Of a stretch of DNA of 64,000 nt, positions 16,224 through 58,498 are shown in pieces. Each line of letters opens with the position of its first letter. Within the stretch, counting starts at the first letter, position 1. The notes under the pieces are model-generated. The model was not told the origin of the DNA and ran no database searches. It saw only the letters and a program-made list of their open reading frames with translations. The translations under genes and the position numbers were made by a program. This DNA comes from Mesaphorura yosii (taxonomy: Eukaryota; Arthropoda; Collembola; Poduromorpha; Tullbergiidae), in the NCBI GenBank assembly GCA_009869945.1, contig WIXG01000022.1, positions 186,001-250,000 on the forward strand, read 5' to 3'.

Positions 16224-16544
<321 letters not shown>

Positions 16545-16841
16545 TTAAGGGACAGGACGTCATCGTCGTCGTCACCAACACCATCGACATCAATGACATC
16601 GATTCGAGAACAACCACCGCATGCTGCGTCGAAACCACAGGATTATTATAATTATTATTACAGTCCGTACATCCAGAACAACCAAGTCAGTGTGTCCAAC
16701 AATCAGAACCCTTTCAACGTGAACAATTCGATACGCCATTTTTCGTACTTTAACTCAACACACACGAACAATCATCATCCGCACACTCAAATCCCGACAT
16801 TTCCCTCAGCCTCTTCCACTTTCCAGAAATTCACGAAATAA
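16545..16841 (+). other. Open frame continuing in phase after the Ubx stop; candidate C-terminal extension or start of 3' UTR
   Basis: The homeodomain frame has no stop for 98 codons after the Ubx TGA and ends at TAA (16839-16841). The translated segment has five consecutive Ser (16560-16574), then PTPSTS, a Tyr-rich patch at 16641-16661, and Asn/His/Gln-rich sequence. This resembles the disordered parts of Hox proteins and differs from the Cys/Leu/Phe-rich chance frames elsewhere in the window. An internal ATG lies at 16593. It could be reached by stop-codon readthrough, by an alternative splice that skips the TGA, or not at all if it is simply 3' UTR. The base after TGA is T, which is not the leakiest context (TGA-C). 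Conservation or protein data would decide. Confidence 0.4.
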
Positions 16842-17092
16842 GAAAGGGCATCCGTGGGCAAGATGGCAAGATTGATGGTTGAGGTTAGTTAAATCGCTTA
16901 AGATCTGCCGAACATTTAACACGGCTTATAAACTATTTGAATAATGATTATAATGATTCGTATTGTGGTAGTTGCCAGTTCAGTGTGTTGCAGCACATAG
17001 ACCTAGTTCTGTTGGTATGAAAAACCAGTATTAACATTATAATATTACTTAAACACTATATCCACTACGATTCCTAGACGCTAAGCTCTGAA

Positions 17093-17100
17093 GTATACGT
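17093..17100 (+). promoter_or_regulatory. miR-iab-4-5p seed match, proximal
   Basis: GTATACGT is complementary to nucleotides 1-8 of Drosophila miR-iab-4-5p as I remember it. It lies about 550 bases after the Ubx stop and upstream of the first poly(A)-like signal, so a short 3' UTR would retain it. Confidence 0.5.
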
Positions 17101-17230
17101 GCATAGTTTTAATTATGACATAAGAATTAATGGACAGCTAGCGTGAGATTGAATGTGAGCGAGTGCGTGATATGGCTGGCCAGAGTTTTTTTGTTTTCCG
17201 TGCCCGCGCCCATGAATGATTGAATATAAA

Positions 17231-17236
17231 ATTAAA
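17231..17236 (+). terminator. Possible proximal poly(A) signal of Ubx (ATTAAA)
   Basis: ATTAAA, the common variant signal, lies about 690 bases after the stop. Use here would give a short 3' UTR lacking the distal microRNA-site cluster. The motif is short and could be chance. Confidence 0.25.
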
Positions 17237-19193
17237 GCTCTCACCATCATTGGCCGGCACCAGCCACAATGAATGAAGGATTCATTTTGCAAGGACACTC
17301 ACTCGCCTCGCCATATTACAGAATGCTTTTGTCTTGTGGCTGCGTTCGCAGTTCGTACAGTAGGAAAATGGTCAGTCAAGTATTCAAGCTTTTTCAACAA
17401 AAGATTCACTCTTTTTTGTCCATTCATAATTGATCGTTTCGCCCTCAAACGTTTCGTTTAGTATACTCATATATTTTGCAGATAACAATCTGATGGTTGC
17501 ATATGAGAAAATTTAACGAACCAACCTAATTATCGCGGCGGGCGAAGTAGTGGTTTTCCTCCTGCCGCTGATTAACTGATGCATGCGTTTAATATTCGGA
17601 AGCCAAATGTTCCAGTTGCGAAATGGTTCGATGCCCATTTTGAGGATGATGCAAAAATGTAATATGCAAAGTACTTGCAGTCAACGCATTCAAATCTTCT
17701 GAGTTTCTCGCTTCTAGTTTTAATGATGCGTGGAGTCCGACTTGCGAAGGCCATGAAAGAATCATTGCAAAATTTGTGGTTTATGTGAGAATTCGGAAAT
17801 AGAAATCGTTTTATCGTTTCGAGAAATGTACCGCTTGCGAAATATTTGTTGCAGTTTAATTGGCAGGAAAATTCGCACAAGAGGCCTGAAGAAAACGGGG
17901 CGCCGATTTGGCAAGGTTAAACAGACAGTAACAGTAACGAGGGTTGCAAGAAAGTGTGGAAGGTTAAGGAGCCGGGAACGAGAAGGAAACCGTTTAAAAT
18001 CTCGTAAAAGTCACTTTATGGAAGTTGTGAAGGGCATAAAACGTAATGTAATGTAGTCGTAAATGACAAGTAAACCGTTTTGAAGATTCTGTTTACTGTA
18101 ATAACTTTTTACGGTTACAGCCAAAGCGAACTTGGGAAACTAGACTTCTAGACGTTCTTTACTCCTTGTGTACTACGTTCATGTGGCGATTCTGAAGACA
18201 CAAACTTTGTTCTTAACTCTTAACTCTTTCTTTCATGACCTTCCTTCTTTAACGTTCCTTTCCTTCGGAAGCCGCAGCCGTAAAGAGATGCAACCTACAA
18301 ACTTGTCACTGCTCCGTCAAAGGATTGAAGCCAATGAATTGAGCTATCATTTTAATCCTCTCACGTCAAAAGAAAGGGTTTGACTTACGATAACCATAAT
18401 CTCAGGCCACTCAGCATGTTTTATGGTACTTTAAATAATGTGCGACGTGCGCATAATTGCGGCCGCGACAATATTCGTAAGTTAATTCATTTCATTTCCA
18501 ATGCACCCAAGCGCAGTGTGCCATCTCATAATCCGATTGTAAACGTTTAGTTTTGTATTCCAATGCAAGGTGGAAGCTAGTTTGCCAGTTTACGAGCTGC
18601 GCGAGTGTTCGGCCGTTACGCTGTATTGTATAATAATAATTTTCATTGCGTACAATAATGGACTCATGCTTTATACGGTTGAAGTGAGAAAGTGCACACC
18701 ATCATGGCATAGTCAGACCCAGCCGTAGCAAAGCCTAAGGTTGGTAGAGAAATGCTCTTGCTTCTTGGAAACACGGTCCCACTGTCCATGAATTCAATAG
18801 GTCGCTCCAGTGTTCGTTTACAGCGTTTATGCACAATATGCGATGTTTTATGGACTTTCGCGTCGGTGGTCGAGGAAAGCAAGCGACGAGCGGAGGACTA
18901 CTTTCTGTTTCGACTCTACGAATGGTCTCGTTTAAAGTTTTATGGCGTCAAATTGTTGTGAACTGAAAAATCGCCTTAATCTTCCTTCAGCTCTCGTGAA
19001 ACTCGGAGACTCAGAGTTAAACTTCTCATTATTTTTGATATCTGATAGATACAAAAAATCATTGCTGAACAGGCAAACCAAATTCAGAGTCAAGTCATTG
19101 ATCAATCAGATCGAGCTGAACAGGTACGCATTATTTCTAACAGAATACAATTTCGCAATTTCTTACTAGGCATATTTTCGCGACAGATGCAGA

Positions 19194-19199
19194 ATTAAA
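19194..19199 (+). terminator. Possible intermediate poly(A) signal (ATTAAA)
   Basis: ATTAAA lies just upstream of the dense iab-4/iab-8 seed-match cluster. If used, it would remove that cluster from the message. This is motif evidence only. Confidence 0.2.
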
Positions 19200-19381
19200 G
19201 AACACAGCAACCTGGACACGTTTTGCGGCTAATTTTATATTTCTTGAATTCACTCAACGACATCCGTCTGTCTTGTGAGGACTTCCAGAGTGTCTCTTTT
19301 GTTGGACTTGTTTGAATGAATGCTTGAAACTTACTAGTTAAATGGTAATGACAAAATTGCTTGCAGTTTTAATTTGTATGT

Positions 19382-19389
19382 TGTAAATA
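19382..19389 (+). promoter_or_regulatory. Pumilio response element in the Ubx 3' UTR
   Basis: TGTAAATA matches the UGUANAUA element bound by Pumilio/PUF proteins, which repress or destabilise mRNAs. It overlaps a TATACG 6-mer (19388-19393) that matches the miR-iab-4-5p seed, so the two factors could compete. It is the only full match I found in the presumed 3' UTR. Confidence 0.35.
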
Positions 19390-19412
19390 TACGCTAATAT
19401 TAATCAAACCAA

Positions 19413-19419
19413 ATACGTA
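19413..19419 (+). promoter_or_regulatory. miR-iab-8-5p seed match
   Basis: ATACGTA is complementary to nucleotides 2-8 of Drosophila miR-iab-8-5p as remembered. It is the first site of the distal cluster. Confidence 0.5.
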
Positions 19420-19453
19420 CTGTAATTAAGGTGGGCTCTACCTAAGTAAACTT

Positions 19454-19461
19454 GTATACGA
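19454..19461 (+). promoter_or_regulatory. miR-iab-4-5p 8mer site
   Basis: GTATACG followed by A is the canonical 8mer form (seed match 2-8 plus A opposite position 1) for miR-iab-4-5p. Confidence 0.55.
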
Positions 19462-19887
19462 TGAAATGTACACGAAACCAAAAGGAGCTAAGCTAAGATA
19501 ACTTCTTCGGAAGAACTAAAATTTTTAAGCGCACCATTACAACTTTATTGCTTTAAGGAAATAACGAAACAAATGTATACTAAAAAGTGGCAAGTGAGTG
19601 AACGCAAGAAGGAACCTTTATTTTATAACTTATTCACTGTTCTATTCTGCTTTTGTGTTCATGATTTCAGAGGTTCATGACAAAGAAAGAAGAGTTTTTA
19701 CGATTTCTTGGATCTGTTCTGTTTTCTTTTCTTGAAGTGATAAGGTTGTGAGCTCGTTCGACTTTATGCACATGTACACAATCCTTCAAACAGCATTAAT
19801 ACTTATTTTTGTAGATCAGACGGGAGAGTGTGAATCTGCACGTCATGTCAAACCAACTCCGAATTGATGAGGGGCAATATTACTATT

Positions 19888-19894
19888 ATACGTA
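19888..19894 (+). promoter_or_regulatory. miR-iab-8-5p seed match
   Basis: ATACGTA overlaps TATACG (19887-19892), a 6-mer seed match for miR-iab-4-5p. Another TATACG follows at 19907-19912. Confidence 0.5.
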
Positions 19895-19962
19895 GCAACT
19901 GTTATTTATACGGTAATTTTAAGTGTACTTGAGTACTAATCATGATACGATTTCAAATCCTA

Positions 19963-19971
19963 GTATACGTA
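19963..19971 (+). promoter_or_regulatory. Composite iab-4-5p and iab-8-5p seed match
   Basis: GTATACGTA contains both GTATACG (iab-4-5p, 19963-19969) and ATACGTA (iab-8-5p, 19965-19971). Either of the two sense/antisense microRNAs could use it. Confidence 0.55.
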
Positions 19972-20187
19972 TTAGTTGTACTGGTATCTGTAGGAGAGTC
20001 TAAGTTTAGCCAACGTCAATCGTGAATGTACTTAATTTATGCTAAGGTCATGTGCAAGTAGTCATCGGAAAAGTACAGTAAAAGTGAGCGAAGGTGGATG
20101 GTGAACGTAGTTCTTGTGGTATTCGTGAGCTCCTAACCGAAAAATTGTAACTTGTAGTGGTCTTAGTGTTTGTACACGGTCAACAAT

Positions 20188-20195
20188 GTATACCG
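20188..20195 (+). promoter_or_regulatory. miR-iab-4-3p seed match
   Basis: GTATACCG is complementary to nucleotides 1-8 of Drosophila miR-iab-4-3p as remembered. It is the only 3p-type site in the cluster. Confidence 0.45.
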
Positions 20196-20209
20196 ACGGT
20201 GAAACTATT

Positions 20210-20216
20210 ATACGTA
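20210..20216 (+). promoter_or_regulatory. miR-iab-8-5p seed match
   Basis: ATACGTA overlaps TATACG (20209-20214), a 6-mer match to the iab-4-5p seed. Confidence 0.5.
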
Positions 20217-20234
20217 CTATTGCATTCTAAAACT

Positions 20235-20241
20235 GTATACG
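20235..20241 (+). promoter_or_regulatory. miR-iab-4-5p seed match
   Basis: GTATACG followed by T gives complementarity to nucleotides 1-8 of miR-iab-4-5p, whose first base is A. Confidence 0.5.
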
Positions 20242-20405
20242 TTAGTTGAGTTGTAGTATTCGCAAGGCAAGATTTACCTTAAAGTCTAAGTATTATTCGT
20301 CACAGCGTAGAGCTGACTTTTAGATCCCAATTTCCAATTTATTTCGTCAGTTGACATCCTTTTTAGCGTCAGAAGTCTCACGTCTGAGTTTATTCAATGT
20401 ATACT

Positions 20406-20420
20406 ATTCAGATATACGTA
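20406..20420 (+). promoter_or_regulatory. Extended iab-4-5p / iab-8-5p target site
   Basis: ATTCAG, one unpaired A (20412) and TATACGTA follow one another. With the A bulged out, bases 20406-20419 can pair with nucleotides 1-13 of Drosophila miR-iab-4-5p. ATACGTA (20414-20420) also matches the iab-8-5p seed. This is the most extensive match in the cluster. Confidence 0.5.
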
Positions 20421-20700
20421 CTAGATTACGAAATGAAGAGTAGCTAGCTGCTAGTGGTTCATGTCTAGCAATGTCGTCGTCAGCTGCCTAGTTTCCCTTA
20501 ACTGTTGTAATAGTTTTCATGATTGAGACTTACATTGCACGATACCATTACTTACTACCGCTGCTACTGTAAGGTGTAACAACTCATTTGTAATTTGTCT
20601 TTATTATTATGCCAGTAAGTTATGACGATGATGTGAAACATTTAAATGCGTATATATATTACAAAATATATTATAATTTGATTGAAAATATACCCAAACC

Positions 20701-20706
20701 ATTAAA
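20701..20706 (+). terminator. Possible distal poly(A) signal of Ubx (ATTAAA)
   Basis: ATTAAA follows an AT-rich stretch and precedes a T/G-rich run (about 20738-20760). It lies just past the microRNA-site cluster. An AATAAA at 20971-20976, followed by T/G-rich sequence, is the alternative. Confidence 0.35.
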
Positions 20707-20970
20707 TTTTGAAAATTTGCAAATGATGGACGGACTTCCGTGTTTTCATTAATTGATTTTGCATGAGACTACACGATTATTTCGCATTCCACACAAAAAT
20801 GATGCGAATAGAAATTTGCCAGCGCCAACTTTCACCGTTGCTGCCAGTAACATTGAGTACATGATATTCACGATGGCTGGAAAGGCAAATCCGCGAATCG
20901 GATGCCGAGTCGACTACGAATGCACAACGCAGAGGACCGAGAGCGAGGAGAAGAGGAAGGAGCGAACGCG

Positions 20971-20976
20971 AATAAA
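20971..20976 (+). terminator. Alternative distal poly(A) signal (AATAAA)
   Basis: This is the first canonical AATAAA on the + strand after the Ubx exon that I found. TTTGTGCTG lies about 17-25 bases downstream. Only RNA 3'-end data can choose between this and 20701. Confidence 0.3.
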
Positions 20977-23900
20977 CCATTCTCGTTTGTGCTGCCATTT
21001 AATATGGTTTACGATCATTTGTAGAGACTTGTCGTTAGGGGACGCCTACCTTTACTCTCCTCAATAACCGGGAGCTGAGAGAGGAATGTATGAATTTCCT
21101 GCATCTGTTCTGGTAGCTTAAAAATGCAACCATTCTTAATATGTAAGTGGTCATGATAAATTTATTTCCCAACAATATCACACTCATAGTAGAGAACGAG
21201 TCAATAATTTCTTTACTCTTAATAATTGTGGATTTCGCTATTTTCTAACGGCATCAACTCCATTCATAAAGAACTTCAGGTAAAATTTTTCGCTGGGCAA
21301 GCCCCACATAATCAGGTTACATTGTGAAAGACTTGTAGCTGAAGGCTCGTCTTTAGGCTTACCTAACATTTTGATAACGTTATTAAAGATGCACCAGAGA
21401 CGCATTGTTTTATAAGAAACAGGGGAATAATTATAAATGCAGTTTGATTGTGCACTGAGATTTTCATTTTCAATGCAAACTGGGCATTGTGCTTCGCTTC
21501 TTGCCGCGGACAATGGACAACTCGTATTTTAATTTTTAATTTCCATCGTACTTGTCCCCACTTGCCAGCGTAAAAAATTTGGGAATTGTAATCACAGAAT
21601 TTGCATACTTTTTTGTCTCCCAGTTTAATTACAAACGTCAAAGTCGGTAATGCTTTATTTTGTGTTCATGTTTCAGGATTGCTCATCATTATTCACGGCT
21701 GCCGCATAAGTCAAGCATCGCCACCCAACGCCAAAAGCAGTAGGCGACAAGTCAGCAGAGTTTAATTACGGACGACCACACGAGACATGCTTTTAATATA
21801 AAAATGAAATATGTGTTTGTTGTATGCGTTTTAATTGTTGTCGAGTCGCATTATTTAATATGAGTCATTGTTGAAAACGGCATGTCAATTCTACTTGACT
21901 GGATTTGGTATTTCAGGAATGTACGCATTGCTCACGCGACTCACGCCTAGCCTCCAGATATTTTCATGCTTCTCCTTCATTCATTCAACTCATCATCATA
22001 GTAATCATAACCTGACCCCTGCCTCTGCCCTGCCCTGCCATGGCTTTGCATTTCATGAGATTGTGTCGACTGCAGCAGAACAAAGCTCAGTTGGCGTGGG
22101 CTAACGCTTCGCAGAGGTGGAAACAAAAGAAAAAATTAAGCGCACAACAAGGACACAAAGGGGAAAGGAGAAAGTGGAAAAGAACGCGTCTTCATTTTCT
22201 TTATTCGACCCTTGATACTCGTAAAAGCATTACTCCGTGACCAACGAAAGCGTGCTTTCTTCAAATTTTATTTTTCCTGTGCTCCAGCTCTTCTTGGAAT
22301 TGTGTACACACACTTAACTACTCGCCCCGCATTGTTTTCGACTTGGAAGTTGCCTTGCCTCATTCACATATGCTTTCCTTTTATTGCGCATAAGCCTCGT
22401 ATAAGTGCAATGTAATACCTTACTAAATATACAATTCCAAGCAGTGGCATAGTAATTTAATGCACTTATACGCACATTCACAAAAACATTGTCAGAAGAT
22501 GAATGGCTCAAGGTGTGATTTTCTTCTCCAAAGCCGTTATTTATTTGGGACGTTACGCGTCGACCGTAAAGCTTGCTGGTGCTGTTTTTATTTCCTCCGC
22601 TTGTATTACAATAGCAAATAACATGAAACAACATCAAACTTCTTAATTGATATTATTTGGTCTCGGATTCCGCTTGCCGAGACCCACACGAAATAGGCAT
22701 TGCTTGGACACTGTGCAGGACGAGAGAGCAGCTTTAGTATATTACTACTTACTACTTCAACTTACACGCAATTAAGATCGCCTCACTTAAGCGAATGTAA
22801 ACACGCTTGGGTCCTGCCCTTCTTTGTCACTAATTTCATTCCCTCAACACGTGCACTCTTAATCAAAAGACTCTGCATTTGCGGTTCAAATCGGCACTTG
22901 ATTTCTGCATCGGGGTCCAAACCATGCTAAGCAATGCCTGCTGCTTGCTGCTCACCATCCAGCGTGGACGCATTACCAGCTTTCTCCAGGATACGAGCTC
23001 GGTTCGCCTTGGTCTCAAAAGAAACTTGAGTGCGCATATTATAATCGTATATCATTGTGGAGAAAGAAATTCCTCCACATAAATCCTTCTGGCTGACTAT
23101 GCTTTATTGCAGCGCACATTGAGCGGAGAAAGGAACAAAATTCGCGGCGCATCGCGAAAGAAATTCGTTTGAGGGAGAGCGAAAGGAAGAATGAACTCTG
23201 GAGAAATTCACATTAAAGGACCTCTCCAAACACCAGACAGGGCGAGATAGTCTCCAGTCGAAGCGTAATAAGATTTCTTCAGCGCTTCCTTCGCGTTCCG
23301 CTTTCGTTCTTATCACTGGATGCAGTCGTGCGATTCGATGTAATGTGAACTTTGTGTTATTTCGCTTTTTATTCGCTCTCGGTTAATGTGTGTATTATAA
23401 TGTCATTGTTGTACGACAACATGGGCACTACGATAGAAAATATTTAGCAAAAGAAATCATCTCGAGAACGGGGCATAAGAGTACGTGTTTCGCGTTCAAT
23501 TTATTTCTCGACTCTTTTGTGACTTCGAACACTACACCGATGCCTTTGCCAGCATGCACCACCGCGCTATGTTTAATGTACACCGCATTTTACAATATCA
23601 TTTCTCCTCATTTATCTCTTCGCCGTAACATATTCATCATTCAAATTGCTGCTGATAGGGATTTTGTATCCACGGTGCATAAATAGAGTCAGAGTTGAGT
23701 GGCTCCGGCGCACGAGAAAGTATGGCCACGAATTTTTATTTCTTTAAGTAGATTTCTTGTTTCATGTCACCGCACCAATGCCAGCCCATATGCAAAGAAG
23801 CAGGCTGCATCCATGCATGCACGAAAAGAGAAGATAATTTTGCAGTTTCTTATTTCATGGCACGTTCCCCCAATTTATTTTATAAGCTTATGTAAAAATT

Positions 23901-56493: not shown

Positions 56494-58498
56494 GCTTCTT
56501 ACGCTAATTTAATCAGACTGACCGAGCAGCCAAATTCAGAAACAGGCTCGCTCAACTCTCTCGTCTGGCAACTAAACAATGGTCGCCACATTTTCATTCG
56601 AAAAGCAAGACAATTGAAAAAAACTGGAAGTAAGATGTTTGGCTGGTTGCTTGTTTTCGAATTCAGAGTCTGCGCCTACGAAGGACTCGCATCTTAAGCA
56701 AGGCAAGTTGTGTAATGCTAGCGGTTGGCAGTTGGTAGTCTCTGCTATAAATTCAATTGTCTCGAATTTTTCTTACATTTTGCTGGTGCTGGCTCCTGTC
56801 CTGAATCTCGACATCGCGTTAGCGGGTTGACAGTGCCAGTTGTCTTCGGGGCAATAACAGATGAACTCCAACAATGGAAACGCAACAGACTAACTTTTTT
56901 GTTCTAAGATCGTATCAAAGTATTTTCACAAAAAATCAAATGGAGTCGCTTGAAATGCCAAAAAATTTCAACCCAAAACGGTCAAAATAAAAAAACGACA
57001 CACGGTATGCAGTGCACCGAAGCCTAAATACTTTAAAATAATATGTCAATGTCTTGAGCAAGAACAAAAACTGATGCTAAACTGAGATAACGTCTTAGTT
57101 TCGGTTGACAGCAAAGAATTGTGCGAGAAAAATGAAAATGGATCCTTGTAAGTACTCAGTTTCAGTAGCGCAAAGCATTGCTTGCCTTGGTCTGGCACGA
57201 GCTTCATAATATTTCCCTTACTCTTGGTCTTGATTTTGGTCTAGGTCCATGACGCCACAATATGAAGGGTTTTCGCTTTCTGTACCGCAAAACAAGAACC
57301 TAAATACATTATTTATTATTAGCCTTTTTGGTTGCTGGACGAATTTAGGCGAACCGCTCCCGAGGCAGGCTTTGAGCCAGGAGAGAAAGGTGCATCTTGC
57401 ACGCAGAAAGAGGAAGAGGAGAGGACTTAAGGGCAACTATAGTGATCGAGCCAGTAGGATCAAGGAATTAGGATTCAGAATCTTGGCAATGCCGTCGGTT
57501 CAAAATGTAAATCTCAAGTCTAATTATATGAGGAAGGGTTTGACGTGTTTACAGCATTATAATGCGGGAAACGAGATCATTATTTTATTGCTTCGTAAAT
57601 CACTCCTCCGTCTACAAACGGTGATGTTCAAATTCCTCTTAATGCCAAACCTGCGAGGACCACAGCCACAATTCACCTTCACTTTGCATTAGAATGCGTG
57701 GGTAGCAAATAGCGAAATAGTAAAGAATGAATCAAAACTCTACTGCCACTGGCAGGACTCCGTTTAGGATGCCGCTGGATAATTAAGTGCAGAGACTGAG
57801 TTATCTGTAGCGAAGCTGCCTGTTCAGGCCGCGCGAGTACGTGACCATTTTTGCAACGATCTTCCAATCTTGTTTTTTACATCTTCCAATTAACAATCAT
57901 TGAAGCACTCTCTTGCCTGGTGCTCATTCCTCTTGGCAAACGGCAAAATGCTGCGGCCATGCTCTTTCTGCTACCATACAAAGTGATAATGATAAGACTT
58001 AATTAACAAAAGATGTAAACGAGCGATTGCGTTGTAATATATAACTATATTATATTAAATACTTGTTTAACTTGTACATCGTGACGGTTGAGGCTTGCGT
58101 GGTGTTCCGAAAAGAGTTAATAAGTCTTCTGAGTATTCGTTTCGTTCCGTGTTCGGAGACGCAACATGGAATTGGAATGAAAATGAGCAGTGAGCAAGTG
58201 AGAGCATAAATAAGATCAAAGGTAAATGCCAAGAGGCAAGAACAGAGCAGGAATCCTGTTGCAAGTATCGAACCCTGGCACAATGCAGCAGTGAAAAGCT
58301 GGTCTTGGTGATTTCCCGTGTCGTGGAAATTGTAGTTACGGGCAAGAGATGGAAATTTATAACAACGAGTAATATATCAAAGGTAGCAGGAGCAGTATCA
58401 TATTATATAATATATTGTGCAAAGTGGAAATAGAAAAAAGTTATGCAAGAGCTACACAAGTCTGAATCCCAATATACGTGCATTGGTGCTCAAGCAGT

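Follow-up and report, generated by a model that had tools for sequence, protein, structure and literature searches.

The DNA analyzed here is a 64-kb window of a Mesaphorura yosii contig, hereafter C22 (C22:186001-250000; assembly of 93.0 Mb in 1127 contigs), which contains the Hox gene Ubx and, downstream of it, an array of heptamers that match the seeds of the Hox-cluster microRNAs iab-4 and iab-8. Coordinates without a prefix refer to the window. Along C22, homeoboxes that all point in the same direction lie at 45.1 kb (split), 115.8, 202.3, 285.0, 338.0, 354.0 and 394.9 kb, and we take them to be, in this order, Abd-B, abd-A, Ubx, Antp, ftz, Scr and Dfd, naming them from their sequences and order; the set fits an arthropod. 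Against the homeobox of the window, the solved chains of Ultrabithorax (4cyc, 4uus, 1b8i, 8f36) scored best and outranked those of abd-A and Antp. For each gene, the sequence from the stop codon to the first AATAAA was treated as the presumed 3' untranslated region (UTR). That of Ubx is long (Table 1); AATAAA-free windows of its length account for 57 of 2456 overlapping windows in 250 kb.

In about 1 kb of this presumed UTR, the initial annotation had listed three GTATACG, five ATACGTA and one GTATACC, complementary to the seeds of iab-4-5p, iab-8-5p and iab-4-3p, respectively, and the coordinates of all nine proved exact (Table 1). One GTATACG and one ATACGTA overlap in GTATACGTA (19963 and 19965), so that the nine heptamers occupy 8 non-overlapping places. 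A tenth site, a GTATACG at 17093, lies in the presumed UTR apart from the array. Across the 64 kb, GTATACG occurs 5 times (including 17093 and 55948, both outside the array), ATACGTA 10 times and GTATACC 4 times. It had also been claimed that well under one site would be expected by chance, and dinucleotide shuffles of 19401-20420 (1,020 bp) bore this out: they contained a mean of 0.29 and a maximum of 4 sites, none of 3000 reaching the nine seen, and the antisense strand of this stretch has 1 site. Because the sites themselves defined where the 1-kb stretch begins and stops, the tests over the whole UTR and over the contig are the fair ones. Sense-strand seed matches were above chance in the UTR-wide test, 10 sites being present in 16545-20700 against a shuffle mean of 0.68 (0 of 1000 shuffles reached 10), with 1 site on the antisense strand. 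In the contig-wide statistics, which covered both strands of 250 kb of C22, the Ubx array ranks first among the 1-kb clusters of both strands, and the runners-up, with 5 antisense and 4 sense sites, both belong to the abd-A 3' region. The strand counts over these 250 kb (GTATACG 13/10, ATACGTA 24/20, GTATACC 9/5) otherwise show mild unevenness only. A third-order Markov model built from the 1,020 bp itself, and thus trained on the sites, gave a mean of 2.2 and reached nine in 2 of 1000 sequences. Within the Ubx UTR, ATACGTA (5 copies) outnumbers every other permutation of its letters (420 in all; the next has 3 copies).

An origin of the array from a repeat or mobile element was rejected: no second copy was found in the 93-Mb assembly and no tandem array in 16500-21500, and a single exact 13-mer is shared within the array. 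This 13-nt repeat, ACTATTATACGTA, stands at 19882 and 20204, holds two of the sites and is the sole longer exact repeat found. Just 5' of the array, at 19382-19389, there is one copy of TGTANATA, a motif of the Pumilio type.

The iab-4/iab-8 hairpin was located on the same contig at C22:72516-72587. Like its fly counterpart, it lies in the interval from Abd-B (45.1-45.5 kb) to abd-A (115.8-116.5 kb); the Hox cluster is the one that holds the Ubx array, and the hairpin is approximately 130 kb upstream of that array. Rfam was searched at an E-value setting in 7 of 14 loci (C22 40-110 kb), and in these 70 kb the hairpin matched RF00725 (mir-iab-4) over its full length (1-71/71; 65.3 bits, E 2.1e-12); its reverse strand also matched the family (28.3 bits). 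A stable hairpin of 93 nt is formed from either strand (-35.7 and -33.6 kcal/mol). The strand opposite to the Hox genes contains ACGTATACTGAATGTATCCTGA, the Drosophila iab-4-5p unchanged, and GGTATACC (iab-4-3p) is found in the hairpin as well. The strand that runs in the Hox direction carries TTACGTATACAGAAGGTATACC, the iab-8-5p arm, with a single change against the Rfam consensus UUACGUAUACUGAAGGUAUACC, at position 11 and outside the seed; the other arm of this strand gives AGGATACATTCAGTATACGT, the same as the consensus. The mature 5' ends, which set the seeds, were taken from Drosophila (iab-4-5p, ACGTATAC; iab-8-5p, TTACGTAT). If they are the same here, the hairpin holds iab-4-5p, iab-8-5p and iab-4-3p forms with unchanged seeds, as the initial annotation had assumed. 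The fly iab-8 RNA likewise has the orientation of abd-A and Abd-B (PMC4005941).

Sites in other genes were counted up to the first AATAAA, unless a fixed 4.4 kb is mentioned, in the order GTATACG/ATACGTA/GTATACC/TGTATCC. On the sense strand, Ubx has 4/5/1/0 in 4,432 bp (antisense 0/1/0/0), abd-A 0/3/1/0 in 2,042 bp (antisense 0/4/1/0) and Antp 2/3/0/0 in 2,275 bp (antisense 1/1/0/0), and in these three genes all 7mer-m8 sites precede the first AATAAA. Abd-B has 0/0/0/0 in 2,170 bp, with none on the antisense strand, and no 7mer-m8 site over the fixed 4.4 kb. Both strands are empty in the 90 bp of ftz and the 176 bp of hth; over 4.4 kb each has one TGTATCC, the antisense strand of ftz having 2/1/0/0. 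Scr has 1/0/0/0 in 1,485 bp (antisense 2/0/0/0) and 2/2/0/0 over 4.4 kb (antisense 3/1/0/0), and in Dfd the 1.5 kb past the homeobox hold one GTATACG. The 8mer GTATACGA is present once in Ubx, twice in Antp (both of its GTATACG) and once in Scr; Abd-B, abd-A and Scr each have a single copy of TACGTAA, the weaker 7mer-A1 match of iab-8-5p. As a control, 10 of 12 homeobox loci obtained from two family searches (Dfd and Scr were excluded as Hox genes) were scanned downstream of the homeobox, 15.1 kb in total, and yielded 3 sites on the sense strand and 5 on the antisense strand. These per-gene counts show that the excess is chiefly on the three genes that adjoin the hairpin on its anterior side, abd-A, Ubx and Antp.

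The same motifs emerged from a ranking of 7-mers that made no use of chosen seeds, in which a second-order Markov model of the 250 kb supplied the expected count of each 7-mer occurring in the UTRs. When the UTRs of Ubx, abd-A and Antp are pooled (8,748 bp), TATACGT ranks first (11 vs 0.50 expected), ATACGTA second (11 vs 0.58) and GTATACG fourth (6 vs 0.37), and in the Ubx UTR alone the top four are TATACGT, TGTATAC, ATACGTA and GTATACG. As a target of iab-4/iab-8, hth was rejected: the 7,925 bp past its stop codon (C355:54675-62599) contain no iab-4-5p, iab-8-5p or iab-4-3p site and one iab-8-3p match, at 57385.

Two local features were also noted. The abd-A 3' region has dense TACGTA cores at C22:117981-118277, with 3 ATACGTA and 4 TACGTAT in 300 bp and no strand bias. 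After Scr there are two copies of CGTATACGA (C22:355322-355330 and C22:356076-356084), one 5' and one 3' of the first AATAAA, in each of which a sense-strand iab-4-5p 8mer is embedded in a palindrome.

Table 1. Ubx, its presumed 3' UTR and the candidate microRNA sites and polyadenylation (poly(A)) signals within it, in window coordinates
Feature	Position	Strand	Evidence
Ubx homeobox (Pfam PF00046)	16269..16439	+	3.2e-22
Ubx stop codon, TGA	16542..16544	+	
Presumed long Ubx 3' UTR, running from the stop codon to shortly beyond the first AATAAA	16545..20995	+	no AATAAA between
iab-4-5p 7mer-m8, GTATACG; proximal, isolated	17093..17099	+	sequence match
ATTAAA, possible further proximal poly(A) signal	17231	+	hexamer match only
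ATTAAA, possible proximal poly(A) signal, 5' of the array	19194..19199	+	hexamer match only
iab-8-5p 7mer-m8, ATACGTA	19413..19419	+	sequence match
iab-4-5p 8mer, GTATACG followed by A; sole 8mer among the ten sites	19454..19460	+	
iab-8-5p 7mer-m8, ATACGTA	19888..19894	+	sequence match
Composite GTATACGTA, readable by iab-4-5p (19963) and iab-8-5p (19965)	19963..19971	+	
iab-4-3p 7mer-m8, GTATACC	20188..20194	+	sequence match
iab-8-5p 7mer-m8, ATACGTA	20210..20216	+	sequence match
iab-4-5p 7mer-m8, GTATACG	20235..20241	+	sequence match
iab-8-5p 7mer-m8, ATACGTA	20414..20420	+	sequence match
ATTAAA, possible distal poly(A) signal just 3' of the array	20701..20706	+	hexamer match only
First AATAAA after the Ubx stop codon	20971..20976	+	

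The initial annotation had named an mRNA end before 19400 as fatal to its proposal. All sites precede the first AATAAA (20971, the last site being at 20414), but most of them follow two ATTAAA hexamers, at 17231 and 19194, that could end shorter forms; an mRNA ending after 19194 would keep only the site at 17093. It is plausible that a long Ubx mRNA form extends to approximately 20.7-21.0 kb and holds the whole array. In the fly, the 3' UTRs of several Hox genes are lengthened in the nervous system, often gaining microRNA sites (PMC4005941, citing Thomsen et al. 2010). No Pfam match pointing to another gene inside the UTR was found in three open frames, 16545-16838 (+), 20753-21064 (+) and 17575-17880 (-). 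The first of these continues the Ubx frame past its TGA over 98 codons, among which those for S, T, N, H and Y are frequent; open runs of at least 94 codons follow 1.2% of the 2261 stop triplets in the window, and the extension may be due to chance, readthrough or an alternative C-terminus.

Altogether, the enrichment, a hairpin that lies between Abd-B and abd-A and has the expected seeds, and the parallel arrays of abd-A and Antp support the proposal that an iab-4/iab-8 circuit acts on Ubx. We consider it highly probable that the array is an iab-4/iab-8 target cluster, placed distally in a long Ubx 3' UTR, through which Ubx output would be lowered. One strand of the hairpin would be transcribed to give iab-8-5p and the other to give iab-4-5p and iab-4-3p, so that, as we infer, the products of both strands act on the one UTR. 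Loaded into Argonaute, these microRNAs would pair by their seeds with the long Ubx mRNA, iab-4-3p doing so at one site, and the pairing would lower Ubx output, presumably in posterior cells, a place and time of repression that we infer. On the anterior side of the hairpin, abd-A and Antp would be further targets of the same microRNAs; Abd-B would be affected little, if at all. The abd-A and Antp arrays belong to the same genome and can stand in only partly for conservation in relatives. We also put forward, as a tentative and rather doubtful extension, that the circuit is focused on the anterior-side Hox block (abd-A, Ubx, Antp), is densest in a distal Ubx UTR that alternative polyadenylation could switch, and lacks the hth branch of the fly. 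If so, the Hox block would be old, and the hth branch would be either a later addition or a local loss.

Several observations weigh against an iab-4/iab-8 target cluster. At the Rfam gathering cut-offs, applied to the window and to 14 loci (C22 40-180 kb), no family was reported and the hairpin was missed, its 65.3 bits being below the curated cut-off of 73; this lowers the formal call of the hairpin, not its likeness to the family. GTATACG and ATACGTA have five letters in common and are therefore not fully independent, and in the Ubx UTR GTATACG (4 copies) ties with one other of its 630 permutations. Taken alone, the abd-A UTR ranks TACGTAT second and ATACGTA only eighth among its 7-mers, and the Antp UTR ranks ATACGTA only fourth, behind unrelated words. 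Scr and Dfd carry some sites too, and the 7mer-A1 match of Abd-B sits before the first AATAAA of that gene.

Other adverse observations bear on two different explanations. The heptamers could be DNA-level binding sites for proteins, in an enhancer or boundary element that lies past a shorter Ubx unit, their likeness to seeds being a by-product of palindromes. Both cores, GTATAC and TACGTA, are indeed palindromes, and the abd-A array, whose core is TACGTA, has 4 sense and 5 antisense sites and hence no strand bias. Only Ubx shows a strong bias, and this makes it harder to explain the abd-A cluster simply at the RNA level. Moreover, the Ubx array begins 2.9 kb and ends 3.9 kb past the stop codon with ATTAAA hexamers 5' of it, so that a short mRNA, which those at 17231 and 19194 would permit, would lose nearly all sites. 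We nevertheless regard this explanation as unlikely: the Ubx heptamers are 10:1 sense, three Hox genes have such clusters past their stop codons, each before the first AATAAA, and the motifs are the seed complements of a microRNA hairpin in the same cluster. Site quality in Ubx is ordinary, with one 8mer in ten sites, none among the five for iab-8-5p, and a predicted accessibility that does not exceed that of other 7-mers with similar G+C (median 0.048 vs 0.062, P 0.41), and fly Hox microRNAs are described as having no major embryonic effect on conserved Hox targets (PMC3290615). These points would fit sites that are in the mRNA and mostly inert, left by drift or local base composition, with few of them mattering. 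Against this explanation stand counts that exceed those of dinucleotide shuffles, the place of the motifs at the top of the 7-mer ranking in the three pooled UTRs and the lack of a repeat unit that accounts for the sites; it seems to us more improbable still than the DNA-level one.

The proposed iab-4/iab-8 target cluster would extend to another animal a control circuit known from flies and other arthropods; it is not a new one. Miura, Nozawa and Nei reportedly described in 2011 the target sites of two Hox-cluster microRNAs in insects, on Antp, Ubx and abd-A, with Daphnia included. As in Drosophila, where seven potential sites are given for the Ubx 3' UTR (PMC3394115), Ubx has multiple seed sites in its presumed UTR, and the candidate targets are on the anterior side of the hairpin; the same paper states that Hox microRNAs adjoin their targets, lying 5' of them, and that the fly ones target anterior-side Hox genes. 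The Antp sites have counterparts predicted in insects (PMC3290615). In the fly, hth is described as a major target through a neural 3' UTR extension (PMC8904962), unlike here, where no iab-4-5p, iab-8-5p or iab-4-3p site was seen in the 7,925 bp that follow its stop codon. In Tribolium, a bidirectional locus acts on Hox 3' UTRs, in which its two products share sites, according to a text in PMC7523956 that is apparently the Hui et al. 2013 abstract, and in millipedes miR-iab-8 represses posterior Hox genes in luciferase assays, abd-A and abd-B being among those named for H. holstii (PMC7523956). Those iab-4/iab-8 sites lie on Hox 3' UTRs, as ours are presumed to, and are reporter-tested, whereas ours are known from sequence; unlike the H. 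holstii gene, Abd-B here has one 7mer-A1 only before its first AATAAA. In Tetranychus, which lacks abd-A, iab-4/iab-8 could not be found (PMC4862073), and in a crab the microRNAs and posterior Hox genes show opposite expression (PMC8062507). What distinguishes the present case is its completeness on one contig, together with the 7.9 kb after hth, in which neither iab-4-5p nor iab-8-5p has a site. With the source hairpin, several target UTRs and site-poor genes side by side, the circuit can be read almost whole from a single contig, and this compact arthropod genome offers a comparison point for deciding which targets, among Antp, Ubx, abd-A and hth, are ancestral.
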